Assembly: GCF_036711975.1 (NCBI RefSeq)
Contig: NC_091966.1
Span: 3,851,501 to 3,915,500, forward strand
Source: Onthophagus taurus
Lineage: Eukaryota; Arthropoda; Insecta; Coleoptera; Scarabaeidae
Length of the DNA: 64,000 bases
Direction of reading: 5' to 3'
Shown: one piece after another, positions 343 through 56,900 of the stretch
How positions within the stretch are numbered: position 1 is the stretch's first letter
How the letters are laid out: each line of letters starts with the position of its first letter
Position numbers and translations under genes: made by a program
Notes under the pieces: generated by a model
The model's input: the letters and a program-made list of their open reading frames with translations, nothing else
Databases searched by the model: none
Told to the model about the DNA's origin: nothing

Positions 343-383
343 GAGTCTCTGAAGATGGCCAAGGGCCGAAACTAGTTAGACTT
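343..383 (+). ncRNA. hammerhead-ribozyme-like motif (copy a)
   Basis: The core CUGAAGA (349-355) fits the CUGANGA consensus and is followed by a GGCC/GGCC helix II (57-60 with 64-67 of this block, loop AAG). Then come GAAA (368-371) and a two-base-pair stem III from the palindrome ACUAGU, with cleavage triplet GUU. Helix I is AGUCU (344-348) with AGACU (378-382). One unpaired U lies between core and helix II. Known from the family: short-stem-III hammerheads occur in Penelope-like elements. Activity here is an inference, and GUU is a weak triplet. Confidence 0.6.
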
Positions 384-390
384 AAATTCT

Positions 391-50900: not shown

Positions 50901-53900
50901 AAAGTCTCGCCTCATCTCATCCCACCAACACATCTTTAATACGATCTTAAGGATTTATTCGAATTTCAAATTTTTTAACATTCCTCAGTTTTTAACGACG
51001 CCATTCTTAATTCATTTTTCATCCTCATTTTGTTCATCCATCAGATAGCAAAATGCTTTACTTTCATATGATTTCCAGTCTACAGCTATTATAACTACAT
51101 TGACTTTGTCGCTGATGATGGAGTAACCCGAAACTAGTACGACTTTATATAAATAAATACAAGTTATAAGTTAATATACGGTTTTTATTTGATCGTTGAT
51201 CTTGCAACATGGATAATTCTTTCAAAAGTAAGATAGTATGTTCCACGGAATTCGAAGTAGCTACATCCAGCATCACGATTATAACTTTTGTTTTTCTCTA
51301 CGTTAATCTTAAGGCCATATTTATTACTCTCAGTCTCAACTCCTTTAAAAGATCACCTCTTCTGATGCAGCTATCAAAGTTGTATGCTCAGTATTTCTCA
51401 GGTTTGTAATCTTCTTGCCCGCAATTGAGTTCCCTCCATTCCATTCGTTCAATGGTTTTCTCACTATATATTCTCCATAGATGTTAAAGGGATTTGGTGA
51501 AAGAACCTTGCACAGCATTTTCCAGTTGATGCATTAAAAAGTCTTTTGGTAATCCAAGATGCAGATGACCATTGGAATATTGAATTTTCGGCATTTTTGT
51601 TTGAGGTGCCTTAAATACAGGATGAATCTCAATCTATACGCATAAACTGAGGGATTTATTGCTTAGGACAAAGAATGACTAATAGATGAAAAAAATTGTA
51701 GTAAAAGTTTTTTAGTTTCCTAGATAGCTGATATAATAGGCGACATCTAGATGATGTGTTTCTTGGAAGATGGATAGGTCGAGATGGTCCAATGGCCTGG
51801 CCACAGTGATCGCCCGGCCTCAATCCTCTTGATTTATACCTTTCGGGTCCCTTAAAGAGCATAATGTACGCCACGGAAGTTAATACCCAGCAAATATTGC
51901 AAAATCAGATACATGCTGCTGCCCAGACAATCCGCCAACACCCTGGTTTAGGCTGCGCTAGTGTGAGTTCTTGGATTCGGGAAGCCCAATTGATAGAAAA
52001 TATGGGAAATAACTTCGAATACTGGCTATGATATTATTTTAAAATGTTCTATGTATTCTTGATTTGAAAGTAAATATCACGGGTATCTATGAAACAGAAA
52101 ATCTCTTACAATTATTTTTTTCGGCTATTAGTCATTATTCGTCATGACTCATGAGGAGTAAATACCCAAGTTAATGCGTATAGGTTGAAAATCACCCTGT
52201 ATAGAATAAAACTTACGAAAAACAAATCAGTGAAGCCCAATTTCATTTTCAGAAGTAGAATAGGAACACGGGAGACACTATTTTCATCGATATCTACGCA
52301 TGCATTGTAGATTACAAAAGATCCTAAGATCTATGCGAGCAATAGATCGGCTTTCTAATTGAGTGGTAGTTGCAGTTTCTCATGGAAGCAACAAATATTC
52401 GCCAAGAATACAACACACAGCTAGAATAGCGCAGATATCAACACAAGATAAGCAACAACTTAGTAGGTAAACTGATTATGAACCGAGTTTCAATCGCATA
52501 CGGCATAAACAATTCCGCTTTTCCAAAATAAGTACTTTGCTATAAGAACTGATCGAAAACTCTGTATACCTACAGTTATTCCCGCAAAGCTTATTTCAAT
52601 TGAAGTACTTGACTTTTCAACTTTAGTTTTTGTCCTACAATTATCTAAAATAGTTTTTTTCAGTCAAAATGATAAGGTTTACTATTTTTTTGTGATAACA
52701 ATACATTTTTTTCTAAAATCGAACAATATATAAAGCTAACTAAACGATGGGAGAATCATTCAACTTGAGTTGCCTCTCCATACAAGGTAAGATATAAAAA
52801 TTATAAATTTTCTTTCTTTTCTTAACATTACAACAATATTTTCATGATTTTGCAGATGAAACTCGCTTTGGTGCTTTTCGCCGTTGTAGCGTTGGGTTCG
52901 GCTTATCCGACCAACAGAGATCTTCAAGGCGATCTTGAAAATATCGTCGCAACCATTCCATTATCCGAAATCAGAGCAATTGCTCGCAAATATGCTGAAA
53001 ACGATGCCGAATTCCAAGAAGTTGTAAAATATTTGCAAGGACCCGAATGGGCTGAGCTTGTTCAAACAGTTGCCGACCACGAAACATGGCAAAGATTCAA
53101 AGCTTACATGTCAGAAGCTGGAGTAGATATTGATGGAGTCATCCAATACCTCCACGACCTCATCGCCGGAGCTCCAATTCCTGTAGCCAAGAAATCCGAA
53201 GTTCGTAGTGTAAGAGATTTCGTCGATGAAGTCCTTGCTATTTTGGATCTTCAAGCCGTACTTGAAGCTCTCAATGACAAACTCAATAATAGCCCCGAAT
53301 TCCAAGAATTCTTTGGAAAAATCTCCAGCGAAGATGCTCATCAAATGGTCGAAGAAATCCGTGCTATTCCCGAGGTTCAACGCATCGCCCAACGTCTCCG
53401 CGAAATGGGTATTGATGTTGACAAAGTTATCGATTTAGTCTACGGTCTTTTGGGATGGAGCAAGAAAATGACCACCAGAGATCTCCAAGGCGATCTTGAA
53501 GATATCGTCGCAACCATTCCATTAGCCGAAATCAGAGAAATTGCCCGTAGATATGCTGAAACCGATGCAGAATTCCAAGAAATTGTAATATATTTACAAG
53601 GACCTGAATGGGCTGAACTTGTTCAAACAGTTGCCGACAACGAAACATGGCAAAGATTCAAAGCTTACATGTCCGATGCTGGAGTAGATATTGATGGAGT
53701 CATCCAATACCTCCACGACCTCATCGCCGGAGCTCCAATTCCCGTAGCCAAGAAATCCGAAGTTCGTAGTGTAAGAGATTTCGTCGATGAAGTCCTTGCT
53801 ATTTTGGATCTTCAAGCCGTACTTGAAGCTCTCAATGACAAACTCAATAATAGCGCCGACTTCCAAGAATTCTTTGGAAAAATCTCCAGCCAAGATGCTC

Positions 53901-56900
53901 ATCAAATGGTCGAAGAAATCCGTGCTATTCCCGAGGTTCAACGCATCGCCCAACGTCTCCGCGAAATGGGTATTGACGTTGATAAAGTTATCGATTTAGT
54001 CTACGGTCTTTTGGGATGGAGCAAGAAAATGACCACCAGAGATCTCCAAGGCGATCTTGAAGATATCGTCGCAACCATTCCATTAGCCGAAATCAGAGAA
54101 ATTGCCCGTAGATATGCTGAAACCGATGAAGAATTCCAAGAAATTGTAAAATATTTACAAGGACCTGAATGGGCTGAACTTGTTCAAACAGTTGCCGACA
54201 ACGAAACATGGCAAAGATTCAAAGCTTACATGTCCGATGCTGGAGTAGATATTGATGGTGTTATCCAATACCTCCACGACCTCATCGCCGGAGCTCCAAT
54301 TCCCGTAGCCAAGAAATCCGAAGTTCGTAGTGTAAGAGATTTCGTCGATGAAGTCCTTGCTATTTTGGATCTTCAAGCCGTACTTGAAGCTCTCAATGAC
54401 AAACTCAATACTAGCGCCGACTTCCAAGAATTCTTTGGAAAAATCTCCAGCGAAGATGCTCATCAAATGGTCGAAGAAATCCGTGCTATTCCCGAGGTTC
54501 AACGCATCGCCCAACGTCTCCGCGAAATGGGTATTGACGTTGACAAAGTTATCGACTTAGTCTACGGTCTTTTGGGATGGTCCAAATAATTAACCTATAT
54601 TTTAAGTTTTGTACTTTTGATATACTTTTCATTAAATAAATTCATGTAATATTAAACGTCTTATTTCTTTTTGTATAAAACCGAAGTATAAAATCAAATA
54701 TATGCAGAAACTTTGAAAATAATTTCAGAAAAAAGAGAAAAGGGTATTTAATACGATCTACGAAAGCAGAAGAATGCCAGAAGAAAAGCTAACGCCACTC
54801 AATGTGGTAATTGTTGTATGTTTAGCTTGATGTCATACAAACATTCCTGCGTATTATTTTCTCCTTTATAGTCGTTCTCTCATTACTGAAAATCATGATC
54901 ATTGGCAACTTATGCCGTCGTACACTGAGGGAAATATATTCTTGAACAAATATTATTATTCTTGGCACAAGCTTATCATATTCTTGTATCTCTACAAGAA
55001 GATCATTTTGTTAAGTGAAGAAAAACCTCATATTCTCAAAGCAAGTACACAAATATTCTTGATTCTCAAGAATACGAATTCTTAGTGAAAGTAAATCAAT
55101 CATCTTGAAAAAGAGTATCTTAGTGTTGCGTCAAGACTCTCATTTCCGTATCGAGAATAAATTTCTTATGTCAAGAATAACGTATCTTTCTTTTTAGAAA
55201 AACATATTCATGTAATAACAATCTTGTATAGTTCTTCATTTGAGTATGATAAATTATTGACGCAAGAATGAATTTTTTGATGCAAAGATTTGATATTCTT
55301 CGATGCTAAGAACATGAGATACTTCATTCGATAATATTTCTATTCTTAAAACAAAAAAGTATTTTTGTTTTAAGAGTATCTTATACTTGTTTCTAAGAAA
55401 TAGATTCAAGAATACATTTTTTTGAAAGTCAAGAATAATTTCCCTCAGTGTATTCTCCATTGACTGAAACCCAGGGGTAATCTTCTGATTCAGGCCCATC
55501 CATTGGGTTGATGACCGTCCTCTGGACTTTCGTTGCTCTTCGTTTCCCAATATTATTAATCTTTCCATATTATTGTCATCTCCTCGTGTAATGCATCCAA
55601 AAAACCTGAGGATATTTGCAAGACAAAAAGAAGATAATAAAAACCATATATTAACTTCTAACTTGCATTTATTTATATTAACTCTCGCCTCATCTCATCC
55701 CACCAACACACCTTTAATACGATATTAAAGGTTTATTCGAATTTCTAATTTTTTAACATTTCACACTTTTTGTCGACGCCATTCTTAATTCATTTTTCAT
55801 CCTCATTTTGTTTATCCATCAGATAGCAAAATGCTTTACTATCACATGATTTCCAGTCTACACCTATTATAGCTATATTGACTTTGTCGCTGATGATGGA
55901 GTAACCCGAAACTAGTACGACTTTATATAAATAAATACAAATTATAAGTTAATTAACATGAATAACTCTTTCAAAAGTAAGATAGTATGTTCCATGAAAT
56001 TCGGAGTATGTACATCCAGCATCACGATTATAACTTTTGTTTTTCTCTACGTTAATCTTAAGGCCACATTTATTACTCTCAGTCTCAACTCCGTTTAGAA
56101 GACACCTCTTCTGATGCAGCTATCACATTTGTATCCTCACTATTTCTCAGGTTTGTAATCTTGCCCGCAATTGGGCTCCCTCCATTATTCGTTCAATGCT
56201 TTTCTCACTATGTATTCTCCATAGATGTTAAAGAGATTTGGTGAAAGAACCTTCCACAGCATTTTCAAGTTGATGCATTAAAAAGTTTTTTGGTAATTCA
56301 AGAAGCAGATGACCATTGGGATATTGAATTTTCGGCATTTTTGTTTGAGGTGCCTTAAATACAGGATGATTCTCAATCTATACGCATAAACTGAGGGATT
56401 TATTCCTTAGGACAAATAATGACTAATAGATGAAAAAAATTGTAGTAAAAGTTTTTTAGTTTCCTAGATATCTGATATAATCGGCGACATCTAGATAATG
56501 TGTTTCCTGGAAGATGGATAGGTCGAGATGGTCCAATGGCCTGGCCACAGTGCTCGCCAAGCCTCAATCTTCTTGATTTATACCTTTCGGGTCACTTAAA
56601 GAGCATAGTGTACGCCACGGAAGTTAATACCCAGCAAATAATGCAAAATCAGATACATGCTGCTGCCCAGAAAATCCGCCAACACCCCGGAAAATATGGG
56701 AAATAACTTCGAACACTGGCGATGTTATTTTAAAATATTCTATGTACACTTCATTTGAAACTAAATATCACGGATATCTATGAAACAGAAAATCTCTTAC
56801 AATTATTTTTTTCGGCTATTAGTCATTATTCGTCATGAGAAGTAAATACCCTAGTTTATGCGTATAGGTTGAGAATCACCCTGTATAGGATAAAACTTAC

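Follow-up and report, generated by a model that had tools for sequence, protein, structure and literature searches.

The question raised by this locus is what seven hammerhead-like motifs scattered over it are, and what kind of element carries them. The window, as we call the whole stretch of 64,000 nucleotides analysed here, lies on contig NC_091966.1 of the beetle Onthophagus taurus (C1:3851501-3915500, in an assembly of 290.8 Mb and 33 contigs), and a first-pass annotation made from its letters alone had reported seven motifs of one design. The motifs are genuine and of a known kind, the hammerheads of Penelope-like elements (PLEs). They are very probably type I hammerhead ribozymes placed in the pseudo-long terminal repeats (pLTRs) of endonuclease-containing PLEs; between A9 and helix II they carry an additional nucleotide, usually a U.

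All seven motifs were located in the window, at positions that had been given correctly to within 1-2 bases (Table 1 lists them with letters). There are six exact matches to CTGANGA-N3..25-GAAAC, against a mean of 0.41 and a maximum of 3 in 100 dinucleotide shuffles, and when the pattern was combined with a helix pairing score the top window sites (18, 16 and 15) rose above the highest score reached in 40 Markov resamplings, 14, and the other copies, with 11-13, stayed below it. The uniformity of the design had been somewhat overstated. CUGANGA holds in six copies of seven, the one at 1434 reading UUGAUGA (C3 to U), and the palindromic six-base stem III also in six, its place being taken by ACGTTT in the copy at 29695(-). 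The copy at 31772 does have the perfect seven-pair helix I and the GUC ascribed to it, with one G.G mismatch in helix II; in the copy at 51105 helix II amounts to two pairs only. The extra U was found in all seven copies, as announced. These are not seven independent cases: 51105 and 55883 are copies within a 7.5-kb duplication (94% identical), 1309(-) and 1434 belong to a single inverted element, as its two arms, and 29695(-) and 31772 have in common a 127-nt unit, inverted and 89% identical, so that the seven sites reduce to four elements. Judged from their sequence, these elements are old and partly decayed, and some of the copies are surely inactive.

In the host genome as a whole, the T-insert pattern CTGANGATGN{3,20}CGAAAC has 3,898 matches, against 16 for the reversed pattern. 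We read 94 sites with their flanks, taken among the first 100 listed places; all of them lie within 6 Mb of the start of contig C1, a stretch that includes the window. Among 82 distinct genomic motifs, 250 of 328 helix I cells are paired, compared with 146.3 (sd 8.6) after permutation (z 12.1), and for pairs 2-4 of helix II the count is 191 of 246, compared with 105.3 (sd 6.7; z 12.7). All four first helix I pairs are present at 57 of the 94 sites, and a palindromic six-mer at 66 (ACCGGT 40, ACTAGT 18, ACATGT 8). In a 13-sequence alignment, 82.5% of cells are paired, versus 58.9% in shuffled and 21.8-45.1% in slid controls, and covariation reaches 0.604 versus 0.215, neither the pairing nor the covariation value being attained in any of 500 shuffles; further pair types showed no excess over shuffles in this alignment (17 versus 15.8).

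A second set of copies comes from a scan of prokaryote genomes, which returned 41 loci with CTGANGATGG...CCGAAACNWGT. Eight of them (L121, L123, L127, L132, L134, L137, L148 and L156) were taken as termite by isolate label, not by fold: Th196 and Nt197 are labels of a study of higher termites (PMC7024585) and Gx485 belongs to PMC11707648, while the other five assignments follow from a label style that is usual for termite-gut genomes. ACATGT is present in all eight, and in seven the distance to a contig end is about 150 nt at most. A fold test gave p of 0.03 or less for five of the eight, compared with none of the 33 other loci, and in the 12 sequences formed by four window copies and these eight, 41 of 48 helix I positions are paired, against a mean of 25.9 and a maximum of 39 in 100,000 permutations; helix I is lost in two of the eight (L123 and L127). 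The eight loci are probably host (termite) DNA joined to bacterial contigs, a possible carry-over in public assemblies.

The earlier observation that the sequences of helices I and II vary while their pairing is kept is thus confirmed as compensatory change, in the 82 genomic motifs as well as in the 12- and 13-sequence sets. At the level of sequence, these comparisons demonstrate a paired fold with covarying helices I and II for the motif family. That the RNA structure had been selected "in the past" fits the window copies and is too cautious for the family, in which some units are 100% identical over 412 nt.

The carrier was sought through the GIY-YIG domain (PF01541), a search of the host genome in which 150 of 942 candidates were scored and listed. 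About 15 matches among these 150 fall in open frames of 757-962 aa, some arranged in tandem and several as close minus-plus pairs. One locus, L248, consists of 2,973-nt tandem units, each with one 837-aa frame (RVT_1 2.4e-14, GIY-YIG 2.1e-7) and one ribozyme, CUGAAGA-U-GAAAC-AUUA-GUUUC-GAA-ACAUGU-A. A reverse transcriptase and a C-terminal GIY-YIG domain in one frame, as in endonuclease-containing PLEs, are found at L248 and L254, and we take the reverse transcriptase of such frames to resemble that of Penelope. The ribozyme pattern is present in seven of 15 fetched GIY-YIG loci (L248, L254, L257 and L259-L262), with a C insert and no palindrome at L262; at L176, a GIY-YIG fragment lies 5' of the ribozyme on the same strand. 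The proposal of minimal PLE hammerheads is supported by this association, in the L248 family, of one ribozyme with each RVT_1 plus GIY-YIG unit. At L248 and L257 (C1:31.64-31.65 Mb), the tandem units are identical over the 412 nt compared, and their orientation changes midway; this family has probably been active recently.

How these elements insert may be read from their arrangement. Where neighbours lie less than 1 kb apart among the 94 sites, 12 of 15 pairs are minus-plus, that is, outward-facing, and the same holds for 21 of 33 neighbours less than 4 kb apart among the first 100 listed places. Twelve young inverted insertions of the L248 family were picked because both arms figure in the match list. 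In every one of them the two flanks have a word of 11-15 nt in common, which we take as a target duplication, and in all 12 one tail ends at +66 to +71 after the cleavage site and the other at +106 to +108. Examined by eye, the listed matches of this family form 16 opposite-strand pairs, 15 with one end of each kind and one ambiguous; seven further matches are without partner in a list that scores only part of the candidates. The family of the 51105 copy gave 16 pairs, also by eye and with some loci duplicates of each other: 11 have one of each end, three a shortened short end, and two are ambiguous. An inverted copy of the tail is found upstream at 44 of the 94 sites. Simple flank comparison at eight other loci yielded no target duplication that we trust. 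A hammerhead within a pLTR, pLTRs in tandem or inverted, an optional tail of 30-40 nt and a short target duplication, all features of PLEs, were thus recovered. That each insertion has exactly one end of each kind is a synthesis of the present analysis, a statement not found in the open-access passages searched.

In the window, the element around 1309 and 1434 fits this anatomy, with a 12-nt repeat, inverted arms and two unequal tails. The repeated word, TCATATAGAAAT, occurs at only two places in the window, those of Table 1, and random pairs of 55-nt window stretches have a word of at least 12 nt in common in 2% of cases. A long palindromic element (1507-2138) sits inside the right tail of this element, and another (30963-31754) stands beside the ribozyme-bearing arms of the second inverted pair. 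No clear target duplication was found around that second pair, and no convincing partner arm for the copy at 342-384.

Nine of the 44 inverted tail copies stop short of the full ribozyme, their matches starting at +1, +2, +4, +6, +14, +37, +41, +46 and -12 from the cleavage site. We considered that cDNA ends at the cleavage site could be the footprint of cleaved RNA, and do not count them as evidence: a GACT microhomology with the other arm is present at the +1 junctions of L267, of L268 and of the window copy, and L263-L266, by eye and all of the 51105 family, resemble internal deletions of the ribozyme.

These features would fit the following cycle. In transcripts of tandem units, two ribozymes would pair through their self-complementary stem III and cleave after position 17, releasing unit-length RNA. 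The PLE protein would cut both target strands about 12 nt apart and prime one cDNA on each, reverse transcription starting downstream of the ribozyme from either of two sites separated by about 40 nt. With such a start, both inserted arms can carry the ribozyme, their tails pointing outward.

Much of this has a parallel in PAc, the Poseidon element of Anolis carolinensis (PMC11167929), in which the ribozyme also sits at the junction of pLTR and frame, two reverse-transcription start sites are separated by the length of a 30-40-nt tail, and the protein cuts and extends both target strands, as we propose here. The frame starts at stem II in PAc, whereas here its start is found about 85 nt beyond the cleavage site; and the passages on PAc insertion in vitro report no difference between strands in the start site, in contrast with the one end of each kind in 12 of 12 insertions here. 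Penelope of Adineta vaga (PMC3846280) likewise has inverted pLTRs, mostly head-to-head, with an optional tail on one of them. Its target duplications measure 8-10 bp, versus 11-15 nt here, and its authors inferred self-priming on an antisense template. Given the 11-15-nt duplications and the paired tail ends, priming on both target strands fits more simply than self-priming.

Do the motifs bear marks of catalysis? Of the 58 distinct motifs in which three or four of the four helix I pairs form, 57 have U16.1 (85 of 94 over all sites), and G17 is found in only one of 56 well-paired distinct motifs with ACNNGT (3 of 94 over all sites). The core CUGANGA plus GAAA flanked by helices I and II, the compensatory change backing these helices, and an NUH triplet with A15.1-U16.1 are those of a type I hammerhead. 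In the 56 ACNNGT motifs, which share descent and are not 56 independent events, the centre of stem III is self-complementary in 49 (CG 32, TA 12, AT 5), and self-complementary dinucleotides make up 25.6% of window dinucleotides. A two-nucleotide loop gains nothing from self-complementarity within a monomer, which points to the pairing of two ribozymes. The self-complementary stem III and the rarity of G17 agree with a hammerhead acting as a dimer. Minimal PLE hammerheads were reportedly described by Cervera and De la Pena (2014) and by Lunse, Weinberg and Breaker (2017), and the title of the latter is said to claim that PLE hammerheads with a diminished stem III cleave as dimers. The type I core, the diminished stem III, the pLTR position and cleavage as a dimer would be common to that system and to the present motifs, and no difference in kind is established. 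A very short stem III with a palindromic loop is also known from the satellite hammerheads of newt and axolotl, which cleave better as a dimer and differ in belonging to tandem retrozymes without protein genes (PMC7229834). Stem III might, in addition, pair two PLE RNAs as twin templates in one integration complex, giving one cDNA per target strand with different start sites; we see a small chance of this.

The extra nucleotide deserves attention of its own. With T, A and C at this position, the host genome has 3,898 (control 16), 1,437 (control 30) and 883 (control 4) matches, respectively, and the pattern without insert, which is shorter by one fixed base and would also match a G insert, has 120 (control 35); G insert and no insert are indistinguishable with the patterns used. 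Among the sequences listed, one or a few families dominate the A- and C-insert matches. By these counts, this genome as a rule has a base inserted there, most commonly U, and the extra U is not decay. One abundant A-insert family of the host genome (CTGAAGAAGGTTGCAACATGGCATCCGAAAC and variants) is found for example at C1:238034-238064 and at L259:4362; in the L259 copy GTCA follows, so that stem III would shrink to ACGU.

The first-pass annotation was right that the extra base departs from the textbook fold, which has none there, in all seven window copies; the position itself was already known. One- or two-nucleotide insertions adjoin CUGANGA in known hammerhead alignments (PMC10085705), and in the plus-strand hammerhead of chrysanthemum chlorotic mottle viroid, an active ribozyme of a viroid and not of a retroelement, A9 is separated from G10.1 by a single additional nucleotide, an A (PMC3705267). 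Changing that A to U raised the trans-cleaving rate 3-4-fold, and C or G was detrimental (PMC3705267). In viral contigs, full hammerheads with a T insert (p up to 0.03) were recovered at 17 of 23 loci, from about five families and 11 of the 17 from one phage family; they occur as type I and type III (L001 family, L004, L010, L016, L021, L022/L023). The no-insert form gave full hammerheads at 28 of 65 viral loci, the A- or C-insert forms at none of 28 (lowest p 0.045), and CTGANGAKGG...CCGAAACTAGT had no match in viral contigs. A rule of U-only inserts, suggested by the viral contigs, is contradicted by the abundant A and C inserts of the host genome.

Could the motifs be something else? Chance, or the composition of AT-rich DNA, might be invoked for the weaker window copies, which score no better than the best resampled sites; the genome-wide count (3,898 versus 16), the window excess and the covariation refute it, and its probability is negligible. 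Non-LTR retrozymes, which are short tandem repeats that contain type I hammerheads and propagate as circular RNA, are a second candidate, as the AT-rich repeats of many animals, among them insects, do carry type I hammerheads (PMC7229834), and 193-bp satellite arrays are present in the window. These satellite units, however, are without the exact motif and offer only weak UUGAUGA look-alikes lacking GAAAC. The elements at hand are dispersed, many of them as inverted pairs with target duplications, the tandem family encodes a reverse transcriptase plus GIY-YIG, and non-coding tandem units of 150-450 bp with one hammerhead each were not what we found. The retrozyme reading is therefore largely refuted, and highly improbable.

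Two other explanations concern what the motif, or its extra base, is kept for. It could have ceased to be a ribozyme in this lineage, the fold being maintained because the PLE protein binds it or because reverse transcription needs it to start. PAc speaks for this, since mutating its ribozyme does not stop insertion in vitro and its cleavage depends on the protein (PMC11167929), and so does the location of the motif just upstream of the tail ends, which are likely reverse-transcription start sites. Recognition alone would not, however, demand the catalytic constraints seen here, namely the core CUGANGA...GAAA, A15.1-U16.1 (57 of 58) and the avoidance of G17 (1 of 56), although the core was fixed by the search pattern and its conservation is not independent evidence; we hold this explanation to be quite improbable. 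As to the extra U, it might be kept as part of an AUG start codon of the PLE frame, formed by A9-U-G10.1. U-insert copies with G10.1 read AUG by construction, and the start codon of PAc lies at the start of stem II (PMC11167929). In the intact L248 family, however, this AUG opens a frame of three codons (AUG AAA CAU UAG), and the frame itself begins with an AUG about 85 nt beyond the cleavage site; inserts of A or C are common too, and phage hammerheads also use U. A start-codon role is refuted for the intact L248 family and is hardly credible in general.

Several observations nevertheless weigh against PLE ribozymes as the explanation. Part of the copies look damaged: at 24 of the 94 sites no more than two of the first four helix I pairs are present, and these sites are apparently decayed, 28 lack the palindromic six-mer, 50 have no inverted tail copy upstream (in stretches that are often short), and several window copies are, from their sequence, without elements needed for activity. 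No PLE protein was recognised in the window among ten frames near the copies, and the ribozyme pattern is missing from the stretches taken at eight of the 15 fetched GIY-YIG loci; some PLE families of this genome therefore lack the ribozyme, carry it elsewhere or have a diverged form. No clean case of a cDNA end at the cleavage site was seen. For PAc, the passages report a ribozyme that cleaved only with protein, mutants whose insertion in vitro was unaffected, and no reads ending at the cleavage site; in favour of the ribozymes, its authors also note having earlier seen a PLE hammerhead cleave itself at 3-25 mM Mg2+ (PMC11167929).

The Rfam library is silent as well. Rfam 15 (E up to 10) found no hammerhead in the whole window, none on 31700-31880 and none at five host-genome loci with clear copies. 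Nor did it match a hammerhead over the motif at five phage loci whose type I or III folds are complete (L004, L010, L016, L021 and L023); a Hammerhead_II match at L021:3221-3280 (-), with 35.0 against a 37-bit cut-off, lies elsewhere on the contig. Since Rfam is silent even on complete phage folds, its silence looks like a gap in the library. The first-pass annotation had tied its fate to the joint absence of a covariance-model score and of compensatory pairing: the former did occur, with Rfam, and the latter is clearly contradicted by the genome-wide covariation.

Table 1. Ribozyme copies and parts of their carrier elements in the window
Feature	Position	Strand	Remarks
Hammerhead copy A	342..384	+	Helix I GAGUCU/AGACUU, helix II GGCC/GGCC, stem III ACUAGU, triplet GUU; extra T 356
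Hammerhead copy B1, left arm of inverted element	1309..1357	-	Helix II GAGG/CCUC, stem III ACAUGU, GUA; helix I decayed; extra T 1343
Hammerhead copy B2, right arm of B1's element	1435..1483	+	C3 to U; helix I partly paired; extra T 1449
12-nt direct repeat TCATATAGAAAT, left copy	1210..1221		Probable target site duplication
12-nt direct repeat TCATATAGAAAT, right copy	2163..2174		Probable target site duplication
Head-to-head element B, between TCATATAGAAAT repeats	1222..2162		Tails past cleavage sites ~94 nt (left) and ~58 nt (right), hand-counted
Left arm of second inverted pair	29636..29762	-	Within 193-bp satellite array; contains degenerate copy C1
Degenerate hammerhead copy C1	29699-29743	-	Extra T 29729; stem III lost
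Right arm of second inverted pair	31753..31878	+	Contains copy C2
Hammerhead copy C2	31772-31816	+	Seven-pair helix I, GUC, stem III ACUAGU, one helix II mismatch; extra T 31786
Hammerhead copy D1	51105..51146	+	Helix I GUCG/CGAC, two-pair helix II, stem III ACUAGU, GUA; extra T 51119
Remnant of D1's inverted partner arm	50884..50906	-	Tail only, without ribozyme
Hammerhead copy D2	55883..55924	+	D1 duplicate in 7.5-kb segmental duplication; extra T 55897
Inverted partner arm of D2	55616..55684	-	Tail only; 83% identity to D1 tail over 69 nt

Between 48095 and 59273, three 587-aa open frames lie in tandem within duplicated stretches that reach 7.5 kb and are 94% identical, the first frame having three Ins_allergen_rp repeats (Pfam 2.5e-131). 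Pieces of an apparent ferlin gene (C2, dsrm_Ferlin, Ferlin_C and FerI domains) extend over 23028-60424 (-), and between these pieces are found satellite arrays and the three allergen-repeat genes. The satellite arrays of the window, with periods near 182, 193 and 346 bp, occupy 5804-7611, 9508-13556, 14743-29502, 31985-33764 and 60671-62694.

On the role of these ribozymes in the elements that carry them, where mutation of the PAc ribozyme leaves insertion in vitro intact, a single genome here offers thousands of copies and several diverged families, in which selection seems to have acted on the fold, the cleavage nucleotide and the self-complementarity of stem III. In the scanned loci of the host genome and of phages this hammerhead variant escapes Rfam, and it is probably undercounted. 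The regular signature of the insertions, an 11-15-nt duplication with two head-to-head cDNAs and one of each tail, constrains the mechanism of insertion. The twin-template role, if true, would explain at once the palindromic stem III, the head-to-head pairs and the combination of one short and one long tail, and would be a retroelement counterpart of retroviral genome dimerisation.

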